Position numbers and translations under genes: made by a program. Under the pieces are notes generated by a model, which was given only the letters and a program-made list of their open reading frames with translations, was not told the origin of the DNA and ran no database searches. A DNA stretch of 49,611 nucleotides from Bacteroidales bacterium (GTDB lineage Bacteria; Bacteroidota; Bacteroidia; Bacteroidales; UBA932). The stretch covers positions 1-49,611 of the forward strand of contig JAFQGK010000056.1 of NCBI GenBank assembly GCA_017398335.1, written 5' to 3'. This document shows, piece by piece, positions 10,321-36,427 of the stretch (positions within the stretch are counted from its first letter, which is position 1; each line of letters starts with the position of its first letter).

Positions 10321-13300
10321 ATGAGTCCGATTAAGCAATTTACATTGGCCCTCACTTGCGTATTTGCGCTTTTAGTGGGGGGGGGCAGCATCAGCCCAGA
10401 ATAGGACGGTTACGGGTGTCGTATCGGCGACTTCAGGCGAAAGTGTTATTGGCGCTGGAGTGCTGATTGACGGAACAACAAAGGGTGTAACTACTGATAT
10501 AGACGGTAAGTATTCCATTGAAGTTCCGGGTGATGCCACTCTTGTTTTCTCAAGCATTGGCTATAAGACCGTACAGGTAAAGGTCAATGGCCGTGCAGTT
10601 GTCAATGTTACCCTTGAAAACGATTCCCAGCTTCTTGAAGAAGCAGTTGCAGTCGGTTACGGTAATCAGAGTAAACTCACTCTGACAGGTTCGGTAGCCC
10701 AGACAACAGGTCGCGAGCTGGCAAAGAACTCTTCAGTCAACCTTTCACAGGGTCTTGCAGGCCGTATGCCGGGCGTGATTGTCAACAACCGTTCAGGTGA
10801 GCCTGGTAAGGATGATGCAACAATGTTCATCCGTGGCCGCTCGACACTCGGCAACAACTCTCCACTTATCATCATCGATGGTATCCCTGGTCGTGGAGAC
10901 GAATTTTCACGTCTTACGGGTGAGGAAATCGAGAGCATCAACGTTCTTAAGGATGCTTCAGGTGCTATCTACGGTGCACGTTCAGCGAATGGTGTAATTC
11001 TCGTTACTACTAAGCGCGGACGCTATGGTGACGCTCCAAGAGTTACATTCACGTATGACCTTGGTCTTCAGCAGCCTACCAAGACCGTGCAGATGGCGGA
11101 TGCCGTCCTTTATGCAGAGGCATACAATGCATCCCTTGCAATCACCGGTGCAGCACCTATTTATAATGAAACCCAGCTCAATCACTATAGGACTGGAGAC
11201 GATCCTATCCTATATCCTAATATTGACTGGTATGATATGGCTGTCAAGCCTGTTTCCGCTCAGCATAAATATGGTGTGAGCATCAACGGAGGTTCTGACA
11301 GAGTGGCTTACTTCGTACAGTTCAACGGACAGTTCCAGGACGGTATCTACCACAAGTCTGCTACCAACTACAGCCAGTACAATGTCCGTTCTAACATTGA
11401 CATTCAGGTAACCAAGGGCATCAAGCTCGGTTTTGACCTCAATGCGCGTCAGCAGCATAAGAACTACTCTGCTTTCGGAGCAAGTGGTGATGGCGGTATC
11501 TTCTACATGCTTCAGCGTAGATTCCCTACTTCTCAGCCATTCTATCCTGATTATCCATATGAAAGATATACAGGCGGTGACAACCCTATAGTAATGGTAC
11601 AGGATCTTACCGGTTATAACAAAACTACCCTCAATACAATAAGTGCGACATTCTCTGCAAACTGGGATCTCAGCTGGATCACAAAGGGTCTGTCTGTAAA
11701 CGGTAAGATGGCGTACGACGTAGTTCAGTCTTTCAACAAGACATGGAAGAAGAACTGGAAGTATTGGAAATATGATGAGATTACCGAGACATATGAGGAG
11801 AAGACTTCAGCAAACTTCACCAGCCCTAATCTCTCAGAGTCTCAGAACAACTGTCATACACTCACTATCAATGCCAATATCAACTATGACCGCGATTTCA
11901 ACGGTCATCATGTGACAGCTCTCGCAGGTTTCGAGCAGAGCCAGTTCAGAAGAGACAAGTTCAATGCTGATATCAATCAGTATGATTCTGATATCCTTGA
12001 TGAATTCTTCGCCGGTACAGCCGACAAAGCTTATTATGGTATCGGAGGTTCTGCAACAGAGACTGCACGTCGAAGCTTCTTCGGCCGTGTAGGATACGAC
12101 TGGAAGAGCAAGTATATGATCCAGGGTATCGTCCGTTTCGATGGATCGGAGAATTTCCCTAAGGAAAACCGTTGGGGTGTGTTCCCTGGCGTTTCAGTGG
12201 GTTGGCGTATTTCAGAGGAGCCTTGGGTTAAGGACAACGCTCCTGCTCTTACAAACCTCAAGGTCCGTGCTTCTTTCGGACAGCAGGGTAACGATCAGGT
12301 TTCTGCGTTCCAGTATATGACAACTTATGCTTATAGCAGTGCAATCCGTTATAGCATGGAGGTCGATGGAAAGAAAGTCAACGCTATCATTCCGGGCGTG
12401 ATTCCTAACCCTAACATCACTTGGGAGGTCGCTAATACATGGAATGTCGGAGTTGACGGTAATATCAACAACGGTATGTTCGGATGGGAAGTTGAAGCAT
12501 TCCATACCCGTCGTTCTAACATCCTTTGTTCTCGTAGCGGTTCTGTACCTTATTATACAGGTCTTACAGGCTCTCTTCCTGCTGAGAACATAGGTATCGT
12601 ATCCAACAAGGGTTTCGAGCTCCAGCTCTCACACGAGAATCGCGTTGCGAACGGTGAATTCATGTATCAGCTTACTGGTAACTTCATGTTCGCAAGAAAC
12701 AGAATCGAGTACATGGACGAGGCTCCTTACGGTGAAAAATATAAATATATGGAGCAGACAGGTCATCCTATGGGTTCTACTCTCCTGTATGTAGCTAAGG
12801 GTGTAAACAAGACTCAGGAAGATCTCGACAACAACCCTCAGTACAAGGGAGCTACACTTGGTGACCTTATGTTCGAAGACCTTGACGGTGACGGTCAGAT
12901 CACTTCTTTCGACCAGAAGCGTTGCGATCTTACAGTAGTTCCTGAGATTGTATTCGGTCTCAACTTCACTGCTCAGTACAAGGGCTTTGACTTCACAATG
13001 CTCCTTCAGGGACAGGGCCGTGCAAGATATCTTTATACTCCTACAACTGACCCTCAGTCAGACAATCTTGAGTATCATATAGCAAAGAATGCATGGACAT
13101 TGACTAACAGGGATTCAGACTATCCACGTATCGGTTCACAGATCACAAGATTGAATTCGACTTATTGGTATAGAAATGCATCGTTCCTGCGTCTCAAGAA
13201 TGTAGAGCTCGGATATACTATCCCTCAGAAGGCCTTCGGCAAGGTTCCGATCAGAGGTCTCAGATTCTACATCGCCGGTTACAACCTTCTTACTCTTACA

Positions 13301-13390
13301 GGACTTAAGGAAGTCGACCCAGAGTCAAGCAGTCGTAGCTCATACCCTCAGATGCGTATTTACAACGCAGGTGTTAAACTTTCATTCTAA
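10321..13390 (+). CDS. susC: SusC/RagA-type TonB-dependent transporter, frameshifted at a 9-G tract
   Basis: About 1022 aa once the frame is restored. The ATG at 10321 begins a signal peptide (MSPIKQFTLALTCVFALLV), then nine consecutive G residues (10377-10385) throw the reading into a TAG at 10402 after 27 codons. With eight G the frame continues as GGAASAQNRTVTGVVS and joins the long ORF. The rest is intact: carboxypeptidase-regulatory-like domain (about residues 25-105, IGAGVLIDGTTKGV, DIDGKYSIEV), plug with IIIDGIPGRGDEF and SINVLKDASGAIYGARSANG, and a 22-strand-type barrel ending VKLSF. It imports oligomers across the outer membrane with SusD, 18 bp downstream. Either a slippage-type ON/OFF switch caught OFF, or an assembly error. 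Confidence 0.88.
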
Positions 13391-13408
13391 TTCCTAAGGA
13401 GATATTTT

Positions 13409-15349
13409 ATGAAAAAGATATTATCAATTCTTGCATTTGCTGCAGTAATGGTATCCTGCGCCGATGATTTTCTTGACAAGGTTCCTCTTGACAAGCTCTC
13501 AGAGGATGCAGTGTTCAACAGCCCTCAGCTTGCAGAGGCATACGTGAATGCTCTTTATCCGGTACTGCCGGATCCGTTCCAGGAAGGTAACATCAGCTGT
13601 ATCACTGATGAAGGATTCTTCAGATACGGAGGCTCTTCTACACGTTACATGTATGACGGACGTCTCAGCCCTTCTACTATCCTGTATATATCTGAAGGTG
13701 GACAGGCTCATGACTCAAGAACAACTACTCTCAACATATGGAACAGAGCATATGAGTTTATCTACAAGATGAACTACTTCCTCCGTGCCGCAGAGAGCGG
13801 AGACTCAAGACTTGACAAAGAGTCTTCCGACAGATTGAAAGGAGAGGTTTATTTCCTCCGTGCGTGGGCTTATTATAACCTTATCCAGCGTTACGCAGGT
13901 GTTCCTATCATCAAGACTCCTCACAGTATCGGCGGATCCGAGGACTTCAAGGTAACAAGGTCGAATTTCGACGACTGCGTTGATTTTATCCTCGAAGACC
14001 TTGTCAAGGCAGAAGAGCTCCTTCCTGACAAAGGCGCTTCAAAACGTGGTAGAGTAAACAAGGATGTTGCTCTTGCTCTCCGCGCTCGCGTTACCCTCCT
14101 TGCTGCTTCCAAGCTGTTCAATGACCCGGATTCTCCTAATCCTTCAATCTGGAAGGGTAAGTATGACTATGAGAACAAGTGGCAGAGAGCATATGATGCA
14201 TGTGAGGCTATAGTGAACAGGGCAGATGTTGATGGAGCTTATGCTCTGGATGACAAATACTCGGACACATGGAAGGATCTGGATTCTCCTGAGCTTATCT
14301 GGGCTAAGTATTTTGTGACTACAGAGGATATCGACAAGGCACAGCTTTATTATTCTCTCGAGTACTACAACGGTTGGACAGCTCTGCAGCCTACTCAGGC
14401 GATAATGATCGATTATGAAATGAACAACGGTAAGAAGTTCTTTGAAGAAGGGTCGGGATTTGATCCTGAGCAGCCTTTCGCAAACCGTGACCCTCGTTTC
14501 TACTATTCGATTGTTACTCCGTTCAGCAAATATGGTGTAATTGAAGATGGCACTTACAATGAATATGAACTTCAGATGTACCTCCTCTTCAAGGATAAGA
14601 CTGTGGCTGATTTCGAGAAAGGCAAGACTATGCCGGATTACGATGATAAGGCAAAAGACCTTGCTCACGCGGTTACTCACAGTGGTCTCGAACTCAGAAA
14701 GTGGTATGACCCTCAGAAGCCTATTACTGACAAGCAGACCATCTCTCCATTCTATCCTTGGTTCCGTCTTGCCGAGTTCTATCTGAACTTTGCTGAGGCT
14801 GCTTACATGTGTGGCAAAGAGGACGTGTGCCGTACTTACATCAATAAGGTCCGTGCACGTGCAGATGTGAACATGCCGCCTGTAACCGAATCTGGCGAGG
14901 CTCTTTGGGATCGAGTAGTGAATGAGCGTCGTATCGAGATGGCATTCGAGTTTACACGTTACTTCGATGTCCGCCGCTGGATGATCGCTGATAAGTATGA
15001 GAATGTGCCTATCGCGGGTATGAGGACCATGGTTCTTGAGAACGGTTCTAAGCAGGAAGTTCTCTACCGTATGGCTCGTCTTTCTTCAGACGTCAACAAG
15101 AATACTTGCTACTATTGGGAGAACTCTTCAGAAAAAGAGACCTATGAAGCAGGTAACAGCGGCAGACCGCTCCAGACCAAGTGGACTTACAGATGGCTTG
15201 GAAAGGATTATGAGATCGATTACGGTGAGTGCCCTCTCACATTCTCTCCAACTCAGAAGTATTTTGTTCCAGCAAACTACTTGATGCCGATTCCGGAAAC
15301 TGAAATCAAGAAGTCTGGAGAGTTTATAGCTCAGAATCCAGGTTATTAA
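13409..15349 (+). CDS. susD: SusD/RagB-type surface glycan-binding lipoprotein
   Basis: 646 aa. Signal peptide II with lipobox MVSC (Cys about residue 17) followed by ADDFLDK, whose acidic residues fit surface export. Typical SusD sequence follows: LDKVPLDKLSEDAVFNS, the TPR-like AYNLIQRYAGVPI region and the C-terminal RLAEFYLNFAEAAY and NERRIEMAFEFTRYFDVRRW blocks. It caps the SusC barrel and presents the ligand. Intact, in contrast to the frameshifted susC. Next gene starts 8 bp downstream. Confidence 0.95.
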   Translation: MKKILSILAFAAVMVSCADDFLDKVPLDKLSEDAVFNSPQLAEAYVNALYPVLPDPFQEGNISCITDEGFFRYGGSSTRYMYDGRLSPSTILYISEGGQAHDSRTTTLNIWNRAYEFIYKMNYFLRAAESGDSRLDKESSDRLKGEVYFLRAWAYYNLIQRYAGVPIIKTPHSIGGSEDFKVTRSNFDDCVDFILEDLVKAEELLPDKGASKRGRVNKDVALALRARVTLLAASKLFNDPDSPNPSIWKGKYDYENKWQRAYDACEAIVNRADVDGAYALDDKYSDTWKDLDSPELIWAKYFVTTEDIDKAQLYYSLEYYNGWTALQPTQAIMIDYEMNNGKKFFEEGSGFDPEQPFANRDPRFYYSIVTPFSKYGVIEDGTYNEYELQMYLLFKDKTVADFEKGKTMPDYDDKAKDLAHAVTHSGLELRKWYDPQKPITDKQTISPFYPWFRLAEFYLNFAEAAYMCGKEDVCRTYINKVRARADVNMPPVTESGEALWDRVVNERRIEMAFEFTRYFDVRRWMIADKYENVPIAGMRTMVLENGSKQEVLYRMARLSSDVNKNTCYYWENSSEKETYEAGNSGRPLQTKWTYRWLGKDYEIDYGECPLTFSPTQKYFVPANYLMPIPETEIKKSGEFIAQNPGY

Positions 15350-15357
15350 TAGATTAT

Positions 15358-18300
15358 ATGAGAAGACTCTTCTTGTCAATAATTGCAGTCTTGGCGATGT
15401 GCTCGTGTTCGAGCACATCGCTCAGATGCAATTTTGTCTCAGCAGATATATCTACGCTTGAGGACGAACATGTGGTACTTGCGGGCTTCGCTGCAAGGGA
15501 TGGACTTTCAGACGGGATTCATATTCCGTTGAGGACTCATGCATTAGCTGTTACGGACGGACAGCAGAAGATATGTATCATCTCTAACGACCTTATGGAG
15601 CTCTCTCCTTCATTGGCGGGAGAGATAAGGACGGAGATCAGCAGACGTTCAGGTCTGCCGTATGACAACATCCTGCTCCATTGCATCCACACTCATAGTG
15701 CCCCTCGTTTTGGTGGCGCAAGTGCTCAGCCAGGTGGTACAAATGCCACTTACAAGGAGCGCGCAGTGGAGGCGATAATAGCCAATGCAGTACAGGCCAT
15801 CTCTGATGAGAAATCCTACAGGGACTTTTCTCTGGAGATTGCCAAGGGTACAACAGACATAAACAGAAACCGATGCGAAGCAGACGGACCTGTTGACCAT
15901 GCATTATATGCAGCAAGGCTTCTTGACAGGAAAGGCAAGCCAATATGTGCCTTCTTCAACCTTGCCTGTCATCCTGTAAGCATGGGACATATCAGCCTGA
16001 TGCTTTCATCCGACTATTCAGGAGTTGCGCGAAGAAATATCTCGAAGGACTGGGGATGTGAAGTCTTCCAGCTGACCGGCGCATCCGGAAACATGAATCC
16101 GATAGGTCCTGAAAGTACTTACGAGCAGGCCGAGATTATTGGTGCAGATCTATATGGTTCACTTAAGGCTCTTGAGTTCGAGAAGGTTCCGGCTCAGGGT
16201 ATGCTCAAGTTCTCTACAGGCGTCGCAGAACTTCCATATAGCATCGACGAAGTGACTCCAGAGGCTGTCAAGGCTCACGCTGACGATCTCGTCGAGAACA
16301 TGAAGACCGTATTCCCTCGCTTTGCAAGAGATGTACGCGGATGGGAGGCTGAAATACTTGAAAGATTCGAAAGCGGACCGGTAAAGAGCAAGCTGGACTT
16401 CAATATGGCTGCCCTCAATATGGACGGTGTCCTCTTCTTCTTCACTCAGGGCGAGCCATTCTGCGAGTATCAGATGGAGGCACGTGAGTCCTTCCCGGGC
16501 AAAACAGTGTTCTTTGCCGGCTATACAGGCGGTCAGAACTCTTATCTGCCTTCAGCTCATGCCTTCGCTACCCGAAAGGGATATGAATATGAAATAGAGC
16601 AGATGCATGTGTATATCAAGGCTCCTTATCCTCTGTCCGACAAGATGCCGGAGGCTTACAAGGAGGCGGTTTTCCAGACCATTGCTTCAGTCAATGACGC
16701 TGACCGCTACAGCATCATCCCTGCTCCGGTCTCACTTGAACCACGTCATGGTGAAAACACATTTACAGGTGAGCCGAAAATCAAGTATGTAGAGGATGCA
16801 GACGTAGCTCCTGAAGGCTATATCCTCGACATTACACCTAAGACAGTTACAGTCACTGCATCCACAGATGCAGGACGTTATTATGCAATGCAGACAATCA
16901 AGCAGCTCCTGCCGGCAGATGTTTATGGACCGGAAGGTTTTGCTGACAAGAAATGGACCCTTCCATGCTGCAGGATCGAGGACAAGCCTAAACTTGCTTG
17001 GAGAGGAATGCATCTGGATTGCGGACGCTATTATTATCCTAAGGAGGAAGTGATGAAGTTCATCGATATGATGGCAATACATAAGCAGAATATGTTCCAT
17101 TGGCATCTTACCGAGGATCAGGGCTGGAGAATTGAAATCAAGAAATATCCGAAGCTTACAGAAATCGGCGCATGGAGAAAGGAGACGGCTGGTTATCCTG
17201 ACAAGGGAGAAAAGAGCGACGGAAAGCCTCACGGAGGTTTCTATACTCAGGATGACATCCGTGAAGTCGTAGCTTATGCAGCGGAGAGGTTCATCACAGT
17301 GGTTCCGGAAATCGAGCTTCCAGGACACTCGGGAGCTGCCATAGCTGCATATCCATGGCTTTCATGCACTCCTGACGAACCTAAGGAAGTTGTGACTTCA
17401 TGGGGTGTGAAGGAAGATGTGTTCTGTCCAAGTCCGAAGACATTCGAGTTTCTTGAGGATGTCTTTGATGAAGTGCTTGAGCTCTTCCCTTCTCCATATT
17501 ATCACATCGGTGGTGACGAATGCCCTAAGGAAGCATGGAGGGCAAGCGAATATTGCCATCACCTTGCCGACAGTCTTGGACTTTCGTCAGTCGATGACCT
17601 TCAGTATTATTTCGTGAAGCATTTCGACACATATCTTCGCGAAAGAGGTAAGACCGTAATCGGATGGGATGAGATTCTTGACGGCAGTGCAGTTCCAAGC
17701 ACTGTTGTGATGTCATATAGAGGACACGCACCGGCATCAAGGGCATTTGCAAAGGACATGAAGGTGATACTTGCCCCTAACAGATGGTGCTATTATGACT
17801 ATGACCAGGAAGAGATAGAGGACAAATTCAGCAATCACCATCTCTTCATAACGCTAAGAAAGGCCTATACTTATGATTATATGAAGTATCTGAATTCCGA
17901 TGTCGCAGGAAAGGCAGACAGCCTCCTTCTTGGTATTCAGGCTTGTGTATGGGGCGAATATATCCCTGATATCCCGAAGCTTCACAAGCAGACCTTCCCT
18001 CGTTCTGCAACCATAGCAGAAGTTACATGGACAGCGGATTCTTCACGCAACTGGAATGACTTCCGTATCCGTCTTGAAAAGGAGTTCGAGCGTCTCGAGG
18101 CAAAGGGAGTCGGATCGAGCAAGGCATATTGGCAGGTAATAGTGAATATGAACCTGGAATCAGAGTACCCTCGTGAAATCGAACTCGAGCTTGACTATCC
18201 TTATGCTGTCATAAGGTACACTACTGACGGAACAGAGCCTACATCTGATTCTCCTCTTGCTCCAAGGTATATGACCGTGAAGAAGGGTGACACAATCAGT

Positions 18301-18360
18301 GCAAGAGGCTTCAAGGCAGACGGCACTCCTGTAGGAACAACAATGACCAGAACATTCTGA
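15358..18360 (+). CDS. Ceramidase-like domain fused to GH20 beta-N-acetylhexosaminidase
   Basis: 1000 aa lipoprotein (MRRLFLSIIAVLAMCSC, Cys 15 or 17). Residues about 25-430 match the neutral/alkaline ceramidase N-terminal fold, with zinc-site-like motifs HCIHTHSAPR, FNLACHPVSMG, FTQGEPFCEYQ and a GYTGGQNSYLP loop. Residues about 455-870 are a complete GH20: a GH20b-type lead domain, then the barrel with FHWHLTEDQGW, ELPGHSGA and the catalytic pair D720-E721 in HIGGDECPKEAW. A chitobiase/Fn3-like C-terminal domain (YTTDGTEPTSDSPLAP) ends it. GH20 releases terminal beta-GlcNAc/GalNAc by substrate assistance; the first half suggests amide (N-acyl) hydrolysis, perhaps N-deacylation or a sugar-peptide amide, which is inference. 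Cotranscribed 2 bp before a paralogous GH20. Confidence 0.85.
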   Translation: MRRLFLSIIAVLAMCSCSSTSLRCNFVSADISTLEDEHVVLAGFAARDGLSDGIHIPLRTHALAVTDGQQKICIISNDLMELSPSLAGEIRTEISRRSGLPYDNILLHCIHTHSAPRFGGASAQPGGTNATYKERAVEAIIANAVQAISDEKSYRDFSLEIAKGTTDINRNRCEADGPVDHALYAARLLDRKGKPICAFFNLACHPVSMGHISLMLSSDYSGVARRNISKDWGCEVFQLTGASGNMNPIGPESTYEQAEIIGADLYGSLKALEFEKVPAQGMLKFSTGVAELPYSIDEVTPEAVKAHADDLVENMKTVFPRFARDVRGWEAEILERFESGPVKSKLDFNMAALNMDGVLFFFTQGEPFCEYQMEARESFPGKTVFFAGYTGGQNSYLPSAHAFATRKGYEYEIEQMHVYIKAPYPLSDKMPEAYKEAVFQTIASVNDADRYSIIPAPVSLEPRHGENTFTGEPKIKYVEDADVAPEGYILDITPKTVTVTASTDAGRYYAMQTIKQLLPADVYGPEGFADKKWTLPCCRIEDKPKLAWRGMHLDCGRYYYPKEEVMKFIDMMAIHKQNMFHWHLTEDQGWRIEIKKYPKLTEIGAWRKETAGYPDKGEKSDGKPHGGFYTQDDIREVVAYAAERFITVVPEIELPGHSGAAIAAYPWLSCTPDEPKEVVTSWGVKEDVFCPSPKTFEFLEDVFDEVLELFPSPYYHIGGDECPKEAWRASEYCHHLADSLGLSSVDDLQYYFVKHFDTYLRERGKTVIGWDEILDGSAVPSTVVMSYRGHAPASRAFAKDMKVILAPNRWCYYDYDQEEIEDKFSNHHLFITLRKAYTYDYMKYLNSDVAGKADSLLLGIQACVWGEYIPDIPKLHKQTFPRSATIAEVTWTADSSRNWNDFRIRLEKEFERLEAKGVGSSKAYWQVIVNMNLESEYPREIELELDYPYAVIRYTTDGTEPTSDSPLAPRYMTVKKGDTISARGFKADGTPVGTTMTRTF
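15394..15421 (+). other. Perfect 12-bp inverted repeat in the 5' coding region
   Basis: GCGATGTGCTCG (15394-15405) and CGAGCACATCGC (15410-15421) flank a TGTT loop, 37 nt after the A of the start codon, within the lipobox-coding region. It is one of several such hairpins at similar positions in this operon. Confidence 0.6.
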
Positions 18361-18362
18361 TT

Positions 18363-20198: not shown

Positions 20199-20200
20199 TC

Positions 20201-25431: not shown

Positions 25432-25459
25432 TCTGCAAGTCAGTCAATAGAATAAATTT

Positions 25460-25490
25460 GCCGGGTGGGTACTGCCCACCTGGCTTTTCT
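25460..25490 (+). terminator. Internal terminator or attenuator
   Basis: GCCGGGTGGG (25460-25469) pairs with CCCACCTGGC (25475-25484), ten pairs including one G-U, with a 5-nt loop, followed by TTTTCTTT. It lies in the 76-bp gap after the 999-residue lipoprotein gene, the widest gap of the operon. Partial termination would lower expression of the downstream peptidase and import genes relative to SusCD. Confidence 0.65.
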
Positions 25491-25507
25491 TTCAAAAGTA
25501 TGTTCCT

Positions 25508-26431: not shown

Positions 26432-26434
26432 AGT

Positions 26435-27793: not shown

Positions 27794-27840
27794 TTTGAAA
27801 ACAGATAGATATAAAATATTAACACTAAAACTCAGATATT

Positions 27841-28884
27841 ATGAAACGCTTGTTTATTTTTGCTACTTTGGCTTTTGTCATGTCATGCAGTTCATGTCAG
27901 AAGGGAGGTGGTGGTTCTCAGCAGCCAGAGGAAGAGGAAAAGGGATTTGTAGTAAAGGGCTGGAACGGAGAGTTTGTCTCTCAGATGTCCAAGGCATATG
28001 AGTCTTTCCTCGAGACCAACAAGATGCCGAACATGATCAATGTCGAGGGCCTTGATTATGCAAGAGGAAAGATGGTTGCAGCAAGTTGCCAGATTCTCAA
28101 GAAGATGGTTGCGGAGCCTGAGACATGGCAGGATGAAGAGGCTGATTTCTTTGATAGTGCATCATGCCCGGACAACGAGAAGAACAATACCGTCAATTTT
28201 GACGAGTTGGATATGGCGACATTCCTCGTGGTGGTGGACAAGATATATGCATATGCAGAGGAGCATCACGGATTGTTCCCGAACTACTGTACAATTGATG
28301 CAGATTATACAGATGCTGACGGTTCCAAATATTCTACCAAGCTGGTGAGCAGCGCAATTACAGTGTCTTTTGCGAGGATATTCAATTACTATGTGACAAA
28401 CAATGCTCTGCCGGAGAAGTTTAGCGTATGGTATTCAGATTATCTGCATTCGACAGCGAACTGCCCGGTCGATGATCCTGTCGTAGTTGCGAAAATGGAG
28501 GAAATCATCGCCGGCAAGACAACTGATTACGAAAAGGCAGAGGCAATTTTCTACTATTCCCTCGACGAATGGGAGTGGGTTAATGACTCAAATACTTCAA
28601 GAGGCGCAGTGAAGACTATCAATCAGAAGGGCGGTAATTGCTGTGACCTCAGCCATGCGGTGGTTGCTATGGCACGTGCCGCAGGCCTGCCTGCACGTTA
28701 TCGTCATGCTCAGTGCAAGTACAAGGCCTCAGGAAGCATCATAGGTCACGTAATGGCTGAAATCTTCGTTGACGGAAAATGGTACCTCTGTGATCCTTCA
28801 AGCTCGGGTACAACATTCGGCAACCATGAGGCTTGGTCTGTAATGGATACATTCAACGGATTGTATAACGAACTACCTTTCTAA
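27841..28884 (+). CDS. Pseudomurein-endoisopeptidase-like lipoprotein (wall-binding repeats plus transglutaminase-fold Cys peptidase)
   Basis: 347 aa. Signal peptide II (FVMSC) and an acidic linker (PEEEE). Two pseudomurein-binding-repeat-like segments follow: about 41-85 (ESFLETNKMPNMINVEGLDY) and about 120-200 (YAEEHHGLFPNYCTID, then FNYYVTNNALPEKFSVWY). The C-terminal domain (about 215-347) is a transglutaminase-fold peptidase with C267 in GGNCCDLSHAV, H303 in GHVMAEIF and D318 in WYLCDPSSSG, within a frame (RGAVKT, AMARAAGLPARYRHAQC, ending ELPF) that I recognise from the C71 pseudomurein endoisopeptidases PeiW/PeiP and related methanogen proteins, which cut the Ala-Lys isopeptide crosslink. 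Whether the bacterial protein cuts pseudomurein or murein is unproven. Confidence 0.78.
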   Translation: MKRLFIFATLAFVMSCSSCQKGGGGSQQPEEEEKGFVVKGWNGEFVSQMSKAYESFLETNKMPNMINVEGLDYARGKMVAASCQILKKMVAEPETWQDEEADFFDSASCPDNEKNNTVNFDELDMATFLVVVDKIYAYAEEHHGLFPNYCTIDADYTDADGSKYSTKLVSSAITVSFARIFNYYVTNNALPEKFSVWYSDYLHSTANCPVDDPVVVAKMEEIIAGKTTDYEKAEAIFYYSLDEWEWVNDSNTSRGAVKTINQKGGNCCDLSHAVVAMARAAGLPARYRHAQCKYKASGSIIGHVMAEIFVDGKWYLCDPSSSGTTFGNHEAWSVMDTFNGLYNELPF

Positions 28885-28887
28885 ATC

Positions 28888-29736
28888 ATGATACTTATTG
28901 CAGACAGCGGAGCTTCAAAAACGGATTGGGGCTGCGTTTCAAGGAATTCGGATGCGTGCATAAGATTCACGAGTCAAGGATATAATCCGAATTACATTAC
29001 CGGACCTCAGATTGTCGAGGATATTCTGAAGAACAAGCCGGCGGACCTGGATCCGGAGAGTGTGAAGGAGATTTATTTTTATGGCGCAGGAGTGACTCCT
29101 CTCCAGTATCCATTCATGGAGGAGACTCTCCGCAAGGTTTTCACCAAGGCGGAGCATGTTTTCATCGCTATGGATACCCTTGCATCCTGCCGTGCCCTTC
29201 TGGGCCGTAAACCGGGTTTTTCTGCCATTCTGGGCACAGGAGCCAACACATGTCTATATGATGGCTGCAACGAGGGCCTGAATGTGGATTCATGCGGATT
29301 TATTCTGGGTGATGAGGGAAGCGGAGCATATCTCGGAAAGAGGCTGATTACAGACTATATCCGTCATAATATGCCGGACAATGTTTATGAAGTCGTAGGA
29401 AAGGAGCTGGGACGCAGTAATGATGATCTGATCGACATCATCTACACCAAGCCTTTCCCAAACAGATTCTGCGCCCAATATGCCAGATTCATCCGTCAGA
29501 ATGTAGGCACTGACCCTTATTTCAGCGAGCTGGTCACTGACGCATTCACGAAGTTCTTTGACAGGATTGTCACGCATTATCCTGATTATACTCAGTATTC
29601 ATTCAATGCGGTCGGTTCTGTAGCATATCATTTCAAGGATCTGCTTGAGCCTGTCGTAAAGAAATATGGAATGGAGATGGGCGTGATTGCACAGGCACCG
29701 ATGGAAGGACTTATCAAGTATCATTTAGAAGCATAA
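28888..29736 (+). CDS. BadF/BadG-type N-acetylhexosamine kinase (NagK/MurK-like)
   Basis: 282 aa, cytoplasmic, no signal. Actin-like ATPase fold: phosphate-1 motif LIADSGASKTDWG at the N-terminus, AMDTLASCRALLG, the phosphate-2 loop ILGTGANTCLYDG, GFILGDEGSGAYLGK and a C-terminal NAVGSVAYHF. The subfamily phosphorylates GlcNAc, GlcN or, in Tannerella MurK, both MurNAc and GlcNAc. Here it sits with a MurQ-family gene and directly upstream (6 bp) of a sugar permease, so it likely phosphorylates the imported amino sugar. Its product is a plausible effector of the DeoR regulator. Confidence 0.85.
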   Translation: MILIADSGASKTDWGCVSRNSDACIRFTSQGYNPNYITGPQIVEDILKNKPADLDPESVKEIYFYGAGVTPLQYPFMEETLRKVFTKAEHVFIAMDTLASCRALLGRKPGFSAILGTGANTCLYDGCNEGLNVDSCGFILGDEGSGAYLGKRLITDYIRHNMPDNVYEVVGKELGRSNDDLIDIIYTKPFPNRFCAQYARFIRQNVGTDPYFSELVTDAFTKFFDRIVTHYPDYTQYSFNAVGSVAYHFKDLLEPVVKKYGMEMGVIAQAPMEGLIKYHLEA

Positions 29737-29742
29737 ATAACC

Positions 29743-30957
29743 ATGGCACAGAAGAAAAATGACTATATCATACCGTTGGCCATAATAGGTATGATGTTCT
29801 TTATCGTAGGATTCGCACTTGGCATCAACAGCTATATCGTACCTCTTCTTCAGGGCGCGCTCAACGTGTCCTCGGGACAATCGTATCTGCTGCTGGCATC
29901 CACTTTTGCCGCATTCCTGCTGTTCAGTTATCCGGCAACCGCGCTTATAACAAAGGTGGGATACAAGAAGACTATGGTTCTGGCTTTTGCGATCTTTGCA
30001 TTCGGATTCCTTCTTTTTGTTCCTTCAGCAAAGATGCAGAGCCTGCCGTTGTTTATGATTGCTTCTTTCATCTGCGGAATAGGCAATACCGTTCTTCAGG
30101 CAGCGATCAATCCATATGCAACCTATCTGGGACCGATCGATACCGCAGCCAGAAGAATAAGCATTATGGGAATATGCAACATCATCGCGTGGCCCGCTTC
30201 GCCTATGTTCCTTGCATGGCTCATAGGCAAGAACCTGGATGAAATGGTCCTTTCGGACATTATATTCCCATTCTATGTACTTACGGCGATCTTTGTTCTG
30301 CTTGGTATCCTTGTGTGGGTGTCTCCATTGAAGGAGATGGCATTCGGCGAGCAGGAAGAGGAAGCGGAGGATACATCAGAGGCAGATGGAAAGACTTCGA
30401 TATTCCAGTTCCCTCATCTCATCCTTGGAGCAATCGCCCTCTTTATGTATGTGGGAGTCGAGACCGTGGCAATGGCAAGTTCAGTCGACTATGCCGCCAG
30501 CCTGTCTCTGCCGGATCCTGAACAATATGCATTCGTTCCTAGCATAGGAATGATTCTTGGCTATCTTTTCGGAATAGTAATGATTCCTAAATATCTTTCT
30601 CAGAGCGGAGCCCTTCGTCTGCATTCGTGGGTAGCAATTGCAGGAACGCTTGCGGTCGTCCTTCTTCCTGAGACATTGTCCATCTATGCTGTGGCTGTAG
30701 TCACTTTCGGATGCTCTGTAATGTATCCTGCGATCTTCCCTCTTGCTCTCAAGGGACTTGGAAAGTTTGCCGACAAGGGATCTTCAATCCTTGTCGCATG
30801 TATTGCAGGAGGTTCAATAGTGCCGCTTGCATATGGTTTCCTTAAGGATAGTGTAGGAAGCCAGGATGCATATTGGATCGCAATACCTTGTTTTGTCTTC
30901 ATTCTTTTCTATGCATACATCGGTTATAAGATGAAATCTAAAACACAGAAACGATGA
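29743..30957 (+). CDS. FucP/NagP-type sugar:proton MFS transporter
   Basis: 404 aa with about 12 membrane segments, beginning after MAQKKNDYI. Family hallmarks include FFIVGFALGINSYIVPLLQ, IGNTVLQAAINPYATYLGP and GSIVPLAYGFLKDS. A charged cytoplasmic loop (EQEEEAEDTSEADGK) separates the two halves. NagP/FucP-type permeases bring GlcNAc, fucose or similar monosaccharides through the inner membrane. Operon placement after the kinase argues for an N-acetylated amino sugar. The next gene overlaps its stop by 4 bp. Confidence 0.9.
   Translation: MAQKKNDYIIPLAIIGMMFFIVGFALGINSYIVPLLQGALNVSSGQSYLLLASTFAAFLLFSYPATALITKVGYKKTMVLAFAIFAFGFLLFVPSAKMQSLPLFMIASFICGIGNTVLQAAINPYATYLGPIDTAARRISIMGICNIIAWPASPMFLAWLIGKNLDEMVLSDIIFPFYVLTAIFVLLGILVWVSPLKEMAFGEQEEEAEDTSEADGKTSIFQFPHLILGAIALFMYVGVETVAMASSVDYAASLSLPDPEQYAFVPSIGMILGYLFGIVMIPKYLSQSGALRLHSWVAIAGTLAVVLLPETLSIYAVAVVTFGCSVMYPAIFPLALKGLGKFADKGSSILVACIAGGSIVPLAYGFLKDSVGSQDAYWIAIPCFVFILFYAYIGYKMKSKTQKR
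29767..29795 (+). other. Inverted repeat in the 5' coding region
   Basis: ATCATACC (29767-29774) and GGTATGAT (29788-29795) are perfectly complementary with a 13-nt loop. The structure starts 25 nt after the start codon. Confidence 0.4.
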
Positions 30958-32150
30958 AGAAATTTTTAGTTAGTTCTTTTTTTGCCATAGCCGGAATGAT
31001 TTCCATCCCGGCTATGGCTTGTACTACTGCGATCATCAGTGCAGAGGCCAGTGGTACCGGAAGACCTTTATTGTGGAAGCATCGTGATACGGATGAATAT
31101 TACAATCACATTGAGTATCTCAAAGGTGAAAAGTATTCTTTTACCGCTCTTGTGAATTCAAAGGATGAGGTGTATGAAGAGGTTTGGGCCGGAGCCAATG
31201 AGAAAGGTTTCGTGATAGCAAATAATGTCTCGTACAATATAAATCTCAAGAAATATGACAACCCTTCAATGAACGGCGTTGTAATGATGAAGGCCCTCGG
31301 TGTCTGTGCTACTGTGGACGAATTCGAGGAATTCATCAGGACTATGGAGATTCCCAGGGGTGCAAGAGCAAATTTTGCAGTTATTGACGGAGTCGGAGGT
31401 GCTGCTTATTTTGAGGTCGGTGACGAGCGGTATTTCCGTTTTGATGTCAAGGATTCCCCGAAAGGATATCTATACAGGACCAATTTTTCCGTTGCAGGAG
31501 TAGAGGACCAGGGAGCGGGATACATCAGATATGAGGCGGCAACGAAGATCTTTGAAGAAAAGGGCTCGGAATTCACTCCCGGATGGATTCTGGACAATCC
31601 TGCACGTTCATTCTATCACGGTCTGATGAAAAGGGATCTTAAGGACTTGAGCGACAGACAGTTAGGGGAGGGCTATGTGATCAGTCAGGATTATATTCCA
31701 CGTTATACGACAGTATCTTCGATTGTTTTCGAAGGCGTTAATCCGGGAGAGGATCCGGCGAATACCGTCATGTGGAGCGCGATTGGTTATGCGCCTTGCT
31801 CATATGCCGTTCCTGTATGGGTAGGAGCAGGAGAAGAAATACCGGCATGCCTGTCATCCAAGGATAAAGCTCTGGCACCGGCAAATGAGTTTGCTATGGA
31901 ACTTAAAGGTATTGTCTTTCCGATAACCAGAGGCAATGGAAACAAATATCTTGACTATCTGACTCTCCGCAGAGACATCCTGCCAGCAATTGTAAAGGCC
32001 GAAGACAAGGAGATTGCAGAAGGCGAGAAACTCAATAAATCCTTTATTACAGAAGGCTTCAATATTGAAAAGGTAAGGAAATTCAATGCCAAGGCGGACA
32101 AACGTTTTGAGGCCTTTCGGGAAAAAATGCAGAAAATCTTAGAAAAATAA
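30954..32150 (+). CDS. Secreted Ntn-type amide hydrolase (C45/choloylglycine-like)
   Basis: 398 aa. The signal peptide MKKFLVSSFFAIAGMISIPAMA is cut so that C23 (CTTAIISAEAS) becomes the mature N-terminus, the nucleophile of N-terminal-nucleophile hydrolases. Further family features: an early Arg/Asp pair (LWKHRDTDEY), GANEKGFVIANNVSYN and an NFAVIDGVGGAAYFEV strand pair. The group hydrolyses linear C-N amide bonds other than standard peptides (penicillin acyl group, bile-salt and N-acyl amides). Here it could cleave a gamma- or epsilon-linked amide, or a sugar-peptide bond, of the wall polymer (inference). A strong 11-bp inverted repeat lies in the signal-peptide codons. Confidence 0.78.
   Translation: MKKFLVSSFFAIAGMISIPAMACTTAIISAEASGTGRPLLWKHRDTDEYYNHIEYLKGEKYSFTALVNSKDEVYEEVWAGANEKGFVIANNVSYNINLKKYDNPSMNGVVMMKALGVCATVDEFEEFIRTMEIPRGARANFAVIDGVGGAAYFEVGDERYFRFDVKDSPKGYLYRTNFSVAGVEDQGAGYIRYEAATKIFEEKGSEFTPGWILDNPARSFYHGLMKRDLKDLSDRQLGEGYVISQDYIPRYTTVSSIVFEGVNPGEDPANTVMWSAIGYAPCSYAVPVWVGAGEEIPACLSSKDKALAPANEFAMELKGIVFPITRGNGNKYLDYLTLRRDILPAIVKAEDKEIAEGEKLNKSFITEGFNIEKVRKFNAKADKRFEAFREKMQKILEK
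30984..31018 (+). other. Perfect 11-bp inverted repeat in the 5' coding region
   Basis: GCCATAGCCGG (30984-30994) and CCGGCTATGGC (31008-31018) flank a 13-nt loop, starting 31 nt after the start codon. No T-tract follows, so it is not a terminator. Confidence 0.55.
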
Positions 32151-32153
32151 GTT

Positions 32154-33482
32154 ATGGATACGTTCACACCTTGGACAATAGTCGTCGACCTGGGCATCAT
32201 CTCGGCACTTATGCTTCTAGGCAAGCTTATAAGAGTCAAGGTGAAAGGCATCCAGCATTTTCTTATTCCTCCGGCAGTCATAGCCGGAATAGCCGGTCTT
32301 ATTTTAGGACCGGAGGTTTTGGGGTGGCTTCCTCTTTCAAACAGTCTTGGCACATATGCCGGAGTCCTGATTGCTTTTGTTTTTGCCGCCCTGCCTTTTA
32401 CTTCTACCTCGAAGGCGCGTGAGGTGGCGAAAGTCAAGAGAATGTGGGGGTATTCTCAGGGAGGGCTGCTTCTGCAATGGGGCTTTGCAGGACTCGTGGG
32501 AATATTGATTCTCAAGCAGATATGGCCGATGCTGCACGATTCGTTCGGTATCACTATGCCTGCTGGCTTCTGTGGCGGTCATGGAAGTGCGGCGGCATTG
32601 GGAGATGCCTTCGCCAAGTTCGGAAGAGAAGAAGTCCTGTCTCTTGCAATGACCTGCGCTACAGTAGGAATAATATCCTCTATCGTCATAGGTCTCATAT
32701 ATCTGAGAGTTGGAACAAAAAGAGGATATTCTGCTTGTCTGACAGAAGCGGAAAAGCTTCCGGAAGAGCTGCGTACCGGTATACTTGCTTCTGAAAACCG
32801 TAAGAGTATAGGTGAGGAAGTCTTTTCCGGCATATCCATTTCAACCCTTACGTTCAATCTTTCGGCAATAGCACTGGTTGTCCTTTGCGGTTATCTTATG
32901 AGCAAAGGCGTCACCCGTATGGCTCCGTCCCTTGAACTGCCGGTGTTCAGTTGTGCATATATTGCCGGAATCCTTATCAAATTAGTATTTGACAGGACTA
33001 AAGTCTCGGAGAAAATCTGTCCTAAGATATCTTCCAGTCTCAGCGGAATGTTTACAGACTATCTTGTGGCATTCGGTATAGCTTCGATAAAGATATCGGT
33101 CGTGTCACAGTATCTGGTTCCTATGATAGTGCTTATACTTTGTGGCCTGATGTTCACTACAATCTATGTATATTTTGCAGCAAAGTATATTTTCAAGGAA
33201 TATTGGTTTGAGAAGGCAATGTTTTCATGGGGTTGGTTTACCGGAACCATGGCGATGGGAATGGCGCTTTTAAGAATAGCAGATCCGGACGGAAAGAGTC
33301 ATTGTGTTGACCACTATGCGATTGCATATATCTTTATTGCCCCTGTGGAGATATCCCTCATCACATTTGCCCCGATTCTCTTTGTCGGCGGACATGGTCT
33401 GATCTTCTCTGCGGTGTGCGCGGTGGTCGGTCTGGCCATAATGTCGTATATGCTGTATAATAAAAAGATATCGAAAGAATGA
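32154..33482 (+). CDS. GltS-type sodium:glutamate symporter
   Basis: 442 aa, an integral inner-membrane protein with about 11-12 hydrophobic segments in two inverted halves. The GltS re-entrant motif is present as GFCGGHGSAAALGDAF, and the second half carries the related GWFTGTMAMGMALLRIADP. Such proteins import L-glutamate with sodium. It follows the Ntn hydrolase by 3 bp and overlaps the AbgB-like hydrolase by 4 bp, making a peptide/glutamate sub-block of the operon. Glutamate is a component of both pseudomurein and murein stem peptides. Confidence 0.88.
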   Translation: MDTFTPWTIVVDLGIISALMLLGKLIRVKVKGIQHFLIPPAVIAGIAGLILGPEVLGWLPLSNSLGTYAGVLIAFVFAALPFTSTSKAREVAKVKRMWGYSQGGLLLQWGFAGLVGILILKQIWPMLHDSFGITMPAGFCGGHGSAAALGDAFAKFGREEVLSLAMTCATVGIISSIVIGLIYLRVGTKRGYSACLTEAEKLPEELRTGILASENRKSIGEEVFSGISISTLTFNLSAIALVVLCGYLMSKGVTRMAPSLELPVFSCAYIAGILIKLVFDRTKVSEKICPKISSSLSGMFTDYLVAFGIASIKISVVSQYLVPMIVLILCGLMFTTIYVYFAAKYIFKEYWFEKAMFSWGWFTGTMAMGMALLRIADPDGKSHCVDHYAIAYIFIAPVEISLITFAPILFVGGHGLIFSAVCAVVGLAIMSYMLYNKKISKE

Positions 33483-34930
33483 AAAGAGTGCTTCTCATAA
33501 TAGCAGCGGTGATGCTTTGCTGCTGTCTTTCCATGTCCGGAAGGAAGCGGGATGTAAAGTTCTCGAATGCTGGAACAGCGTATATAGAACGGTCGTTCAG
33601 CACTTACGATGTATTGCAGAAACAGATTCACTCATTTGCCGAGCTTGGCTATATGGAATACAGGAGCAGCGGGCTTCTTGCTTCACACCTTGAAAGCAAC
33701 GGCTTTCGTGTAGAGATGGGAGTGGCCGGTATTCCGACTGCTTTTGTCGCTACCTTTGGCAGCGGCAGTCCGGTCATCGGCCTGCTGGCGGAGTATGATG
33801 CGCTTCCGGGAATGTCTCAGGATACTGTTGCATATAAAAAAGCACTGAAAGATGGCGCTCCTGGTCATGGCTGCGGGCATAATCTTCTGGGAACAGGTTC
33901 TGTGGCAGGTGCCGTCGCTATCTCAAAATGGCTGGCAGAAGGTCATCAGGGTACTGTTGTTCTCTTTGGCTGTCCTGCAGAAGAAGGAGGAGGAGGAAAG
34001 GCTTATATGGCCCGCGAGGGTTGTTTTGATGGCGTAGATGCAATCCTTGACTGGCATCCCGATATCTGCAACCTTGTCAATGTGGAAAGCGGTCTGGCCA
34101 ATGTCCAGATGCGATTTACTTTCCATGGAGTTTCTTCCCATGCTTCAAGTGCTCCCGAAAAAGGACGCTCTGCTTTAGATGCTGTGGAGGCCTTCAATTT
34201 CATGATGAATATGATGAGGGAACATGTTCCGGATGGAACGAGGATTCATTATGTCATTACGGACGGAGGAAAGGCGCCTAATGTGGTTCCGGACAGGGCA
34301 GAGGTGCTTTATTACCTGAGGAACAGGAGCCGTGCTGTGGTTCAGGACCTGAAGGAACGCGCGATCAAGGCAGCGGAAGGGGCTGCTATGGGTACAGGTA
34401 CTACTGTTGAATTCGAGGCTGTTTCCGGTAACTTCGAGCGCCTCTATAATGAAAGCCTTGCTCAGGTGCTTCAACGCAATCTTGAGACTGTGGGAGGTGT
34501 TGAATATGATGCCCGCGAAATGGCTTTTGCAGAAGAAATGCTGGAGGCTTCCGGCATCAATGATAAGTCCGTACTTAAGAAACCGTCAATGGTTCTGCCT
34601 CTTGGGGCGGACTATCCTACTTTGAAGGGAGTCTCAAGCGACGTGGGAAATGTGACTTGGGTGGCTCCGACAGCAAGTTTCAGAGCGGCGACTTTCGTTC
34701 CTGCGGGATTAGGCCATTGCTGGCAGTTTACCTCAAGCGGTGGTACTACCATAGGAACAAAAGGTGTTATGAATGTAGCTAAGGTTATGTTCTTCACGGC
34801 TTATGATCTATATAACTCTCCTGAGACAGTTGCAAAGGTAAAGGCAGAGTTCGATGAGCGCAGAGGCAATGACTTTGTCTTTGTTCCTCTTATCGGTGAC
34901 AGAAAACCACCGTTGGATTATCGTAAGTAG
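33479..34930 (+). CDS. M20-family amidohydrolase (AbgB-like), exported
   Basis: 483 aa with an N-terminal signal (MKRVLLIIAAVMLCCCLSMSG), possibly a lipoprotein at one of the clustered Cys. M20 metal-site motifs are in place: PGHGCGHNLLGT, the Glu pair in CPAEEGGGG, ILDWHPD, and the dimerisation segment VSSHASSAPEKGRSALDA. Closest recognisable group is AbgB, which hydrolyses p-aminobenzoyl-glutamate to release glutamate. Next to a glutamate symporter it probably releases glutamate or another acid from an amide conjugate in the periplasm, feeding import. Confidence 0.85.
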   Translation: MKRVLLIIAAVMLCCCLSMSGRKRDVKFSNAGTAYIERSFSTYDVLQKQIHSFAELGYMEYRSSGLLASHLESNGFRVEMGVAGIPTAFVATFGSGSPVIGLLAEYDALPGMSQDTVAYKKALKDGAPGHGCGHNLLGTGSVAGAVAISKWLAEGHQGTVVLFGCPAEEGGGGKAYMAREGCFDGVDAILDWHPDICNLVNVESGLANVQMRFTFHGVSSHASSAPEKGRSALDAVEAFNFMMNMMREHVPDGTRIHYVITDGGKAPNVVPDRAEVLYYLRNRSRAVVQDLKERAIKAAEGAAMGTGTTVEFEAVSGNFERLYNESLAQVLQRNLETVGGVEYDAREMAFAEEMLEASGINDKSVLKKPSMVLPLGADYPTLKGVSSDVGNVTWVAPTASFRAATFVPAGLGHCWQFTSSGGTTIGTKGVMNVAKVMFFTAYDLYNSPETVAKVKAEFDERRGNDFVFVPLIGDRKPPLDYRK

Positions 34931-34955
34931 ATATTAACCACATAATTTCAATACG

Positions 34956-36380
34956 ATGAAAAAGTATTTTATTTTACTGTTTGCTGCAGTGGCTTTAGCT
35001 GTATCCTGCAACAATGACAAGAAAGAGGCGGAGGTGTACCCGATGTTCTGGACATGGCTGGAAGATCTACCCGGCGTAGACATGGAGGCTTCGTTCAAGG
35101 CCATGCATGAGGCTGGAATTGATGGAGTCATGCTCCATGCCGCTTCTAACGAGGATTATAAGCGCGACATTGAAATCGCCAGAAAGTATGGTATCACAGT
35201 CTATGCATGGCTGTGGACACTCAATCCTCCGCGTCAGGACAGGCCTCAGATGTTGGAGACTCTTCCTCACTGGTTCGATGTCAATCGTGACGGTCAGAGT
35301 CTTGCGGAGTATAAGGCTTATGTGAATTCGTATAAGTTCATGTGCCCGAATCTTCCTGAGGTAAGACAGAATCTTGTAGACAGAGTCATCAATCTTTGTC
35401 AGATCGACGGCATTGAAGGTATCTGCCTTGATTATTGCCGCCTCGTTGACGTTGTGTTGCCGATATCTCTCAGCTACAACTATAAGATCAGACAGGATGG
35501 TGAGGTTTTCTCTCAGTGGGACTTCGGATACCATCCTGCAATGCTCGAAGAATTCAAGGCCAAGTATGGCTATGATCCACGCGAACAGGAAGACCCTTCA
35601 AGAGACAAGACCTGGTGCCAGTTCCGTTGCGACAAGGTTACAGAGTGTGCTAATCTCATGGCTGAGACGGCACGTAAGTATGGCCGCGTCGTCACCGCTT
35701 CTCCTTTTGCAACCCCTAAGGTTGCCTCGTTCATGGTGGCTCAGGATTGGGGCAAGTGGGACCTTGACATAGTATTCCCTATGCTTTATTGTGATTTCTA
35801 CACTCAGGAGTCGGGATGGGCTTATGACGGAACAATCGAGGGCAACAGAGACAAGAATCCTAAGACAGTCCTTGGTGTCGGTCTGGATACTGAACTTGGC
35901 GGATCTCCGGAGAATATCTTTGCAAAGATGGATAATGCATTCAAGGCAGGTGCGCAGGCTGTTTCGCTCTATACTATCGCCGGTCTCAACACTCCAGAAC
36001 TTCGTGCCCGTTTCAAGGAATATGCAGACAAGATGCGTGCGGTAAGGGCTGAAAACGGAGGAAAGGTTCCTTATGAGAAGGTAGATACAGTCGATCTTAA
36101 TCCATTCAATCATCCTTCGCTCATGGCGGTCGTAGAAAGAAATCTCCAGCGTCTTGCTGCCGGAGAGCAGATTCATGAGTTCAGTATCAACGGTATGGTG
36201 GAAGATGATCCTGCAAAGGTTTATCCAGCATTGGATCTTACTGATTATGAACTCGTTTTCGAAAACGAGCGTATCAAGAAATATAGAGTAAGCGACAAGG
36301 TCAGCGGAAAAGCGTTTGACGTTATCTTTATAGTATACGGCGAAGTCATTTCCGGTTGGGATGCACGCCTCGTAGAATAA
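34956..36380 (+). CDS. Third TIM-barrel putative glycoside hydrolase lipoprotein
   Basis: 474 aa. Lipobox LAVSC (Cys about 18). A GHL10-like barrel occupies about residues 28-370: VYPMFWTWLEDLPG, AGIDGVMLHAASNEDY, YGITVYAWLWTLNPPR, GIEGICLDYCRLVD, VTASPFATPKV, LDIVFPMLYCDFYTQESGW and AVSLYTIAGLNTPE. It is only distantly similar to the proteins at 21046 and 25508 but keeps the same strand order, with the Asp of CLDYCR at the equivalent place. A C-terminal segment (about 390-474) is unassigned. Last gene of the operon, ended by the hairpin at 36395. Confidence 0.72.
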   Translation: MKKYFILLFAAVALAVSCNNDKKEAEVYPMFWTWLEDLPGVDMEASFKAMHEAGIDGVMLHAASNEDYKRDIEIARKYGITVYAWLWTLNPPRQDRPQMLETLPHWFDVNRDGQSLAEYKAYVNSYKFMCPNLPEVRQNLVDRVINLCQIDGIEGICLDYCRLVDVVLPISLSYNYKIRQDGEVFSQWDFGYHPAMLEEFKAKYGYDPREQEDPSRDKTWCQFRCDKVTECANLMAETARKYGRVVTASPFATPKVASFMVAQDWGKWDLDIVFPMLYCDFYTQESGWAYDGTIEGNRDKNPKTVLGVGLDTELGGSPENIFAKMDNAFKAGAQAVSLYTIAGLNTPELRARFKEYADKMRAVRAENGGKVPYEKVDTVDLNPFNHPSLMAVVERNLQRLAAGEQIHEFSINGMVEDDPAKVYPALDLTDYELVFENERIKKYRVSDKVSGKAFDVIFIVYGEVISGWDARLVE

Positions 36381-36394
36381 TATTATACATAAGT

Positions 36395-36427
36395 AAATGA
36401 GCCGGCTGAAATCCAGCCGGCTCATTT
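36395..36427. terminator. Bidirectional terminator between the operon and secDF
   Basis: AAATGAGCCGGCTG (36395-36408) and CAGCCGGCTCATTT (36414-36427) form a perfect 14-bp stem with a 5-nt AAATC loop, followed by GCGTTTTAT on the plus strand and a T-rich stretch on the minus strand. It sits between two convergent transcription units. Confidence 0.85.

Follow-up and report, generated by a model that had tools for sequence, protein, structure and literature searches.

Gene content of the locus

The stretch of DNA analysed here (the window) comprises 49,611 nucleotides and is contig JAFQGK010000056.1 (C52) of a Bacteroidales assembly of the lineage UBA932 (GCA_017398335.1; 2.21 Mb in 73 contigs, 86% complete). 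It harbours a cluster of sixteen open reading frames on the forward strand (10460–36380; g1 to g16 in Table 1) with a SusC/SusD pair at its head and a divergent gene of the DeoR family adjoining. The families of its genes suggest that this cluster is probably a polysaccharide-utilisation locus (PUL) with which gut Bacteroidales exploit pseudomurein, the polymer that makes up the walls of Methanobacteriales. An earlier note on this DNA had kept both pseudomurein and bacterial murein as candidate targets. The former is now supported by the matches of the transglutaminase-fold protein g10 to methanogen viruses and Methanobacteriaceae, by the homology of its N-terminal region to archaeal repeats and by a conserved gene set.

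Intergenic gaps across the cluster range from -4 to 76 bp, and 14 of the 15 are shorter than 50 bp, which confirms the sixteen closely spaced same-strand genes of the earlier note. The gene families named there are likewise borne out by Pfam and NCBIfam. Three features are added, namely the ceramidase-like domain of g3, the divergent DeoR gene with an inverted repeat, and a run of nine G in SusC. With neighbouring SusC and SusD genes plus glycan-degrading genes the cluster has the make-up of a Sus-like PUL. A profile of five ceramidase-like domains of the g3 type matches the neutral ceramidases 4wgk and 2zws, which we take to be zinc enzymes cutting amides; in many relatives the ceramidase-like and GH20 parts are two separate genes. 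No paper on a ceramidase-type peptidoglycan amidase in taxa of the Bacteroid- names was found in the open-access literature. The TIM barrels have a single weak relative among solved structures (4s1a, 8e-5).

Table 1. Genes and features of the cluster and its upstream region, with predicted localisation signals where seen
Feature	Position	Strand	Basis and remarks
DeoR-family regulator, divergent from operon	9343..10107	-	Pfam DeoRC 3e-40, HTH_DeoR
perfect inverted repeat of 18 bp with a spacer of 5; putative operator for DeoR	10157..10197	.	
g1 SusC	10321..13390	+	Plug 3e-16; open frame listed from GTG 10460
g2 SusD	13409..15349	+	SusD_RagB 3e-47
g3 ceramidase-like domain fused to GH20	15358..18360	+	Ceramidase_alk 4e-11, GH20 8e-108
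g4 GH20	18363..20198	+	GH20 2e-120
g5 MurQ-family SIS protein, divergent clade	20201..21049	+	NF003915 1e-88; both catalytic Glu present
g6 LTD + GH18/DUF4015-like TIM barrel	21046..22401	+	LTD, DUF4015 slightly below cut-offs; lipoprotein-like start by eye
g7 lipoprotein-like, BACON domain + tandem modules	22432..25431	+	modules homologous to g10-family N-terminal region
g8 DUF4015/GH18-like TIM barrel	25508..26431	+	DUF4015 3e-8
g9 C1B (PepC/bleomycin-hydrolase type) peptidase	26435..27793	+	Peptidase_C1_2 9e-109; signal peptide by eye
g10 lipoprotein-like, N-terminal region akin to pseudomurein-binding repeats + transglutaminase-fold domain	27841..28884	+	Transglut_core 3e-19
g11 BadF/NagK-type sugar kinase	28888..29736	+	NF046058 2e-7, far under its cut-off
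g12 NagP-like MFS sugar importer	29743..30957	+	NF046060 6.5e-82, under equivalog cut-off
g13 C45/AAT Ntn hydrolase, amidase-like	30954..32150	+	AAT 2e-6; NF040521 9e-11, under its cut-off
g14 GltS-like glutamate carrier	32154..33482	+	Glt_symporter 8.5e-16
g15 M20 peptidase	33479..34930	+	Peptidase_M20 3e-12; signal peptide by eye
g16 GHL10-like TIM barrel	34956..36380	+	GHL10 6.5e-7; lipoprotein-like start by eye

Kinship of the transglutaminase g10

The best matches of g10 outside the Bacteroidales belong to methanogen viruses and Methanobacteriaceae. A tblastn search of 50,697 phage records gave matches in 20 of them at E≤10. First came Methanobacterium virus Drs3 with its "pseudomurein-binding repeat protein" (42.2% identity, residues 201–347, E 5e-24), in which a linker motif and the C-terminal end are conserved too; second by E-value was Methanobacteriales virus vir080 (28.7%, 3e-5). 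Within its order (295 genomes) no foreign match is better than E 1e-9 (27% identity), and 99 of these genomes (own genome included) contain matches at E≤1e-3, some with up to 40% identity over about 70 residues. For the genus, presumably Cryptobacteroides given a related locus from Candidatus Cryptobacteroides intestinipullorum, 200 genomes that sample a larger group evenly were compared. At E≤1e-10 g10 is found in 21 of them, again including its own; identities of the others are 40–55%.

A contig scan, the pattern of which was built from a viral and Bacteroidales alignment and favours such kin, returned 73 pattern matches with 56 confirmed relatives of g10. These are 45 loci from Bacteroidales or Bacteroidia according to their titles (L095–L139, two on one contig), eight archaeal ones (L140–L143, L146–L148 and L150, two genomes giving two each), one from Omnitrophota and two from Riflebacteria. 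The contigs of the 45 loci overlap in part with the 200 genus genomes. Viral contigs gave no match in a first scan with narrow patterns and four in a broader one. The transglutaminase of the Omnitrophota relative (L144:9542-10411) is of the same kind and shares 45% identity with g10; no repeat was found in this protein.

The phylogeny was reconstructed from 92 rows (89 different) as an unrooted tree from one search with a long-branch warning, L035 and L150 being left out with fewer than 90 residues. In it the 46 copies from the loci fall into a single clade (99/88), with which four viral rows and a generic one group at 96/93. A branch of 2.89 sets apart 28 of the order's 29 generic transglutaminases, and archaeal rows are scattered near the base. 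As far as these sequences allow, the tree shows a single locus clade distinct from the generic enzymes; it speaks to this separation rather than to the direction of any gene transfer.

The columns of Cys267, His303 and Asp318 of g10 are invariant in 42 sequences, and they also agree with two virus proteins that bear a pseudomurein peptidase annotation; these residues are the putative catalytic triad. The C71 peptidases PeiW and PeiP cleave the Ala-epsilon-Lys bond by means of a Cys-His-Asp triad, according to excerpts of PMC4592898, a study that employed synthetic peptides.

Relation of g10 and g7 to archaeal pseudomurein-binding repeats

The Drs3 protein contains three PF09373 repeats (2.7e-17). 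At E≤1 this family is matched by 11 of 17 proteins in the alignment of g10 kin, that is by Drs3 and ten of 16 Bacteroidales proteins; single scans of ten Bacteroidales proteins gave six with a match, the best at 9.8e-5 (22.7 bits). The relatives led to five archaeal genomes, and PF09373 occurs above its cut-off in all five but in none of 14 control genomes. In three of the four Methanobacteriaceae relatives scanned the repeats are fused to a g10-type transglutaminase, and the fourth has Big_3_5 domains.

At E≤0.1 a hidden Markov model (HMM) of 29 archaeal repeat segments, with Drs3 among the proteins searched for segments, detects 32 of the 46 proteins of the g10 family (10 at 1e-3) and four of 53 g7-family proteins (one at 1e-3). 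Among 359 other locus proteins it finds none at E≤0.1 and 20 at E≤1, and with shuffled sets of the same sizes (46, 53 and 359) there was none at E≤0.1 and two in all at 1. Profile–profile comparison of the archaeal repeats with the N-terminal region of the g10 family yields 96.2% (E 2.5e-9; second copy 69%), and 13 control families remain at 0.0–0.6%. The same N-terminal region matches the g7 module (139 copies taken from the g7-family proteins of L095–L139) with 96.3% (E 1.5e-9, 141 columns). The search of g7 against phages by tblastn yielded a single match with E 0.2. Judged by these profiles, the N-terminal region of the g10 family is homologous to the archaeal pseudomurein-binding repeats, whereas pseudomurein binding itself is putative.

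Conservation of the gene set

The cluster is more than a chance arrangement, as the same genes in the same order are met again at 45 loci and in 20 genomes of the same genus, two sets that partly overlap. One of the 45 loci is located in Alistipes sp. An66. Counted over up to 10 kb on either side and frequently cut by contig ends, the 45 loci contain SusC in 5, SusD in 9, GH20 in 32, ceramidase-like/GH20 in 26, MurQ in 32, the LTD barrel in 36, g7 in 41, GHL8 in 34, the kinase in 38, NagP in 36, C45 in 29, GltS in 26, M20 in 22, GHL10 in 12 and C1B in 5 cases. In this map matches are prioritised, and the neighbourhood maps of the genus genomes and of the MurQ copies hide some genes under larger shadow reading frames. 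A short form lacking GHL8, C45, GltS and M20 within the stretch covered is seen in L097 (Candidatus Cryptobacteroides intestinipullorum), L098, L099 and L131, so the core and the peptide-degrading sets may be separable. A duplicated locus was observed on JAFRSW010000022.1 (L125/L129), where two SusCD-repeat-transglutaminase units are adjacent.

The locus of Alistipes sp. An66 (L139, Rikenellaceae), presumably a cultured chicken isolate, comprises SusD, two ceramidase-like/GH20 genes, GH20, MurQ, a g7-like gene, the transglutaminase, LTD barrel, kinase, NagP, C45, M20 and GltS. Rumen, omasum or reticulum are named in the titles of 13 of the 45 loci and 15 more are labelled RUG, which we take to mean rumen; of the remaining titles some indicate reindeer or horse faeces and others give no site or just a hint. 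Such gut and rumen sites are inhabited by methanogens.

The MurQ-family gene and the sugar kinase

MurQ is found at E≤1e-15 in 80 of the 200 genus genomes. Copies with 63–100% identity to g5 (class A) occur in 25 genomes, and the other copies are 39–49% identical, short fragments excepted. Of the 21 transglutaminase-positive genomes 20 have a class A copy, the exception (G385) being fragmented. Five class A genomes gave no transglutaminase match; three of them contain the same type of locus cut by contig ends (L242–L244) and two contain other loci (L240, L241). In the phylogeny class A is set off from canonical MurQ by a branch of 1.5 (100/100), so that g5 belongs to a separate clade, which also holds L240, L241, a second copy in G338 (L245) and sequences from two other families (G541, G289). 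The thirty g5-type proteins compared all have the pair of glutamates which we assume to be catalytic in MurQ, and in all thirty the serine of the GTSGRL motif is replaced by glycine. Their median identities to two solved MurQ-family chains are 39–47%.

Twenty lower-identity copies, nine of them from eight transglutaminase-positive genomes, were surveyed for their surroundings. Another BadF gene adjoins in 15 and a recR-like gene (by eye) in 10. Weak SusC homologues are near five and weak NagP homologues near two, and none of the twenty is near homologues of GH20, ceramidase-like, transglutaminase, TIM-barrel, C45 or M20 genes.

In L240 (G432:C68) a class A MurQ, a BadF kinase and NagP stand beside SusCD, two GH89 NAGLU genes and one GH20, and no peptidase was seen among the genes scanned. 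Ceramidase-like genes are near class A MurQ in L241, G541 (by BLAST only) and G289. L241 and G289:C36 (L252), which belong to different families, each combine MurQ-like, BadF and NagP genes with a DegT/DnrJ aminotransferase (Pfam) that has a Tat-like start by eye. Class A MurQ had been considered as proof of N-acetyltalosaminuronic acid (TalNAcA) as substrate; this was dropped, as the clade also occurs without the transglutaminase in L240, L241 and two other families.

The kinase g11 has kin among solved structures (1zbs, 1zxo, 8oqw, 8oqk). Positions 133–135 and 94 are given in excerpts of PMC10465942 as the determinants of MurK for N-acetylmuramic acid (MurNAc); the PDB chain of MurK was assigned by these residues, as PDB names differ. 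All 38 g11-type kinases have Asp133 and Met94 where MurK has Ser and Thr; Ser134 (38/38) and Cys135 (37/38) are both small. The combination of small residues at 133–135 with Thr94 is hence not found in them. A second group of kinases has Ser134 in 13 of 15, mostly together with Arg133 and Ser94, and is nearer to the paralogous MurNAc kinase K1058. By sequence the pocket of g11-type kinases appears distinct from that of MurK, from which their substrate does not follow.

Start of SusC and putative regulation

The window has a single run of six or more G or C, nine G at 10377–10385, and across it the SusC signal peptide (ATG at 10321) and the remainder of the protein are in different frames. The run is an indel of the assembly or else a phase-variable tract. 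Copies of the DeoR regulator were found in 7 of 25 stretches searched, many of which end before its place: five in loci of the same type (L064, L072, L082, L089, L245) with 55–59% identity, one in L241, which has no transglutaminase (58%), and one in L250 (29%). The inverted repeat beside the regulator gene is the longest perfect one in the window with a spacer of up to 12 and carries AAACGAAA half sites; of four AAACGAAA/TTTCGTTT sites in the window three lie between DeoR and SusC. Upstream of the regulator the AAACGAAA octamer occurs in four of six relatives examined (7, 3, 3 and 1 copies; 0 in two), and a perfect 18-bp inverted repeat was found in none of the six. The repeat is a putative DeoR operator.

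Proposed function and rival explanations

Pseudomurein contains TalNAc-GlcNAc (GlcNAc, N-acetylglucosamine) beta-1,3 bonds, exclusively L-amino acids and several isopeptides, as described in excerpts of PMC11915815 and PMC12820599. This beta-1,3 glycan and the L-only peptides fit the GH20s, the PepC-type peptidase and the glutamate carrier. In the proposed pathway wall fragments would be captured by the lipoprotein g7 with its tandem modules and by SusCD, g10 would bind the wall and open isopeptide cross-links, and the ceramidase-like domain of g3 may act as an amidase freeing the peptide stems. GH20s and TIM barrels would trim the glycan, and the all-L peptides would be degraded by the C1B, M20 and C45 enzymes, with import of glutamate via GltS. 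Sugars of the GlcNAc type could be imported and catabolised by NagP, the BadF kinase and the MurQ-like enzyme under control of DeoR.

Several observations weigh against pseudomurein as the substrate. No enzyme for TalNAcA was identified in the cluster, and its MurQ-family gene and kinase remain to be accounted for. PF12386 (Peptidase C71) does not match g10 at E≤10. It matches nothing in the whole genome either, a result of little weight alone, as the controls of that search are silent as well. In the 17-member alignment it matches Drs3 only (3.9e-4, under the cut-off), and it comes near the cut-off for L144 and L145 (21.2 and 21.4 of 22 bits). The designation of g10 as C71-like in the earlier note therefore holds as resemblance but not as formal membership. 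None of the singly scanned Bacteroidales proteins reaches the PF09373 cut-off of 24.9 bits; g10 and g7 of the window have no match, and with the archaeal HMM this g10 attains just E 0.11. Direct comparison of the archaeal repeats with the g7 modules is not significant (1.0%) and that of g10 with g7 is, so g7 is tied to the archaeal repeats solely via g10. The binding repeats claimed earlier thus stand as homology by profile, in g7 through g10, and fall short of the Pfam threshold. In the tree Drs3 and the viral contig L091 sit beside the long generic branch (86/75 and 93/91), outside the locus clade.

Some of the contrary evidence points to bacterial murein, with MurQ and the BadF kinase converting MurNAc and g10 cutting D-Ala-Lys or similar cross-bridges. 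Related transglutaminases are fused to PG_binding_1 in a Riflebacterium (L145:9533-10432) and in L091 (2482-3417), and the repeat domain has been reported (PMC3124540) to bind lysozyme-treated bacterial spheroplasts as well. The PG_binding_1 fusions are perhaps a murein-acting branch of the enzyme family of g10. The retained glutamate pair of g5 and the kinship of g11 with MurNAc kinases also fit murein, but the MurQ-family gene, formerly the main counter-argument to pseudomurein, is weakened by its divergent clade, which is also found in the GH89/GH20 locus. Moreover, the genus keeps its other MurQ copies elsewhere, mostly by another BadF gene, and g11-type kinases differ from MurK at positions 133 and 94. 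Pfam at E≤1 detects none of the families of lysozyme, NagZ, NlpC/P60 or LD-endopeptidase among the sixteen genes, as had been stated before, and the known muramidase, NamZ and murein endopeptidase genes of a murein-degrading locus were not found by it either, although one of the TIM barrels may be a muramidase. We therefore regard murein as an unlikely target.

Still less probable appears another GlcNAc-rich glycoconjugate of archaea or host, such as methanogen surface glycoproteins or mucin-like glycopeptides, with g10 as a mere anchor or protein-processing enzyme. The core of GH20, NagP and NagK-type kinase would suit it, as would the presence of the MurQ-BadF-NagP set in loci where GH89, or DegT together with ceramidase-like genes, is found. 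But g10, and the g7 modules via g10, seem to point to wall binding, and a peptidase-rich set is unsuited to a plain glycan.

Returning to pseudomurein, a more far-reaching version is rather doubtful. It assumes that gut Bacteroidales have inherited a system for consuming the walls of methanogens, perhaps even of live ones, that its endolysin-type enzyme is common to them and to methanogens or the viruses of these, and that the MurQ-like enzyme cuts TalNAcA from O3 of GlcNAc-6-phosphate by elimination. The latter is conceived because O3 of GlcNAc bears a carboxylated sugar as that of MurNAc bears lactate; against it, the GH89 locus shows that class A MurQ need not mean splitting of TalNAcA.

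In the open-access literature no report of bacteria feeding on pseudomurein was found. If pseudomurein is the substrate, there are bacteria in rumen and gut specialised in consuming methanogen biomass, a trophic link bearing on methane, and the locus would be a source of enzymes for opening methanogen cells. Elimination on TalNAcA-GlcNAc-6-phosphate would be a new way of glycosidic bond cleavage. With the presumably cultured Alistipes sp. An66 the pseudomurein reading is directly testable.

Comparison with known systems

Like the Sus-like PULs of Bacteroidota, the locus combines SusCD, lipoprotein, glycosidases, importer, kinase and regulator; in contrast with the usual ones it has an endolysin-like enzyme and a set of peptidases for a peptide-cross-linked polymer. 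The MurT-MurK-MurQ system of Tannerella forsythia likewise consists of a BadF kinase, a MurQ-family protein and a transporter, but the MurQ of the window belongs to a separate clade and its kinase is devoid of the MurNAc-recognition residues of MurK. With PeiW, PeiP and the Drs3 protein g10 has in common the repeat-type N-terminus, the transglutaminase fold (by sequence) and the Cys-His-Asp columns, and with Drs3 also 42% identity in the catalytic part. It differs from these as a bacterial protein with a lipoprotein-like start, known by sequence alone and silent towards PF12386, that is encoded within a nutrient locus.

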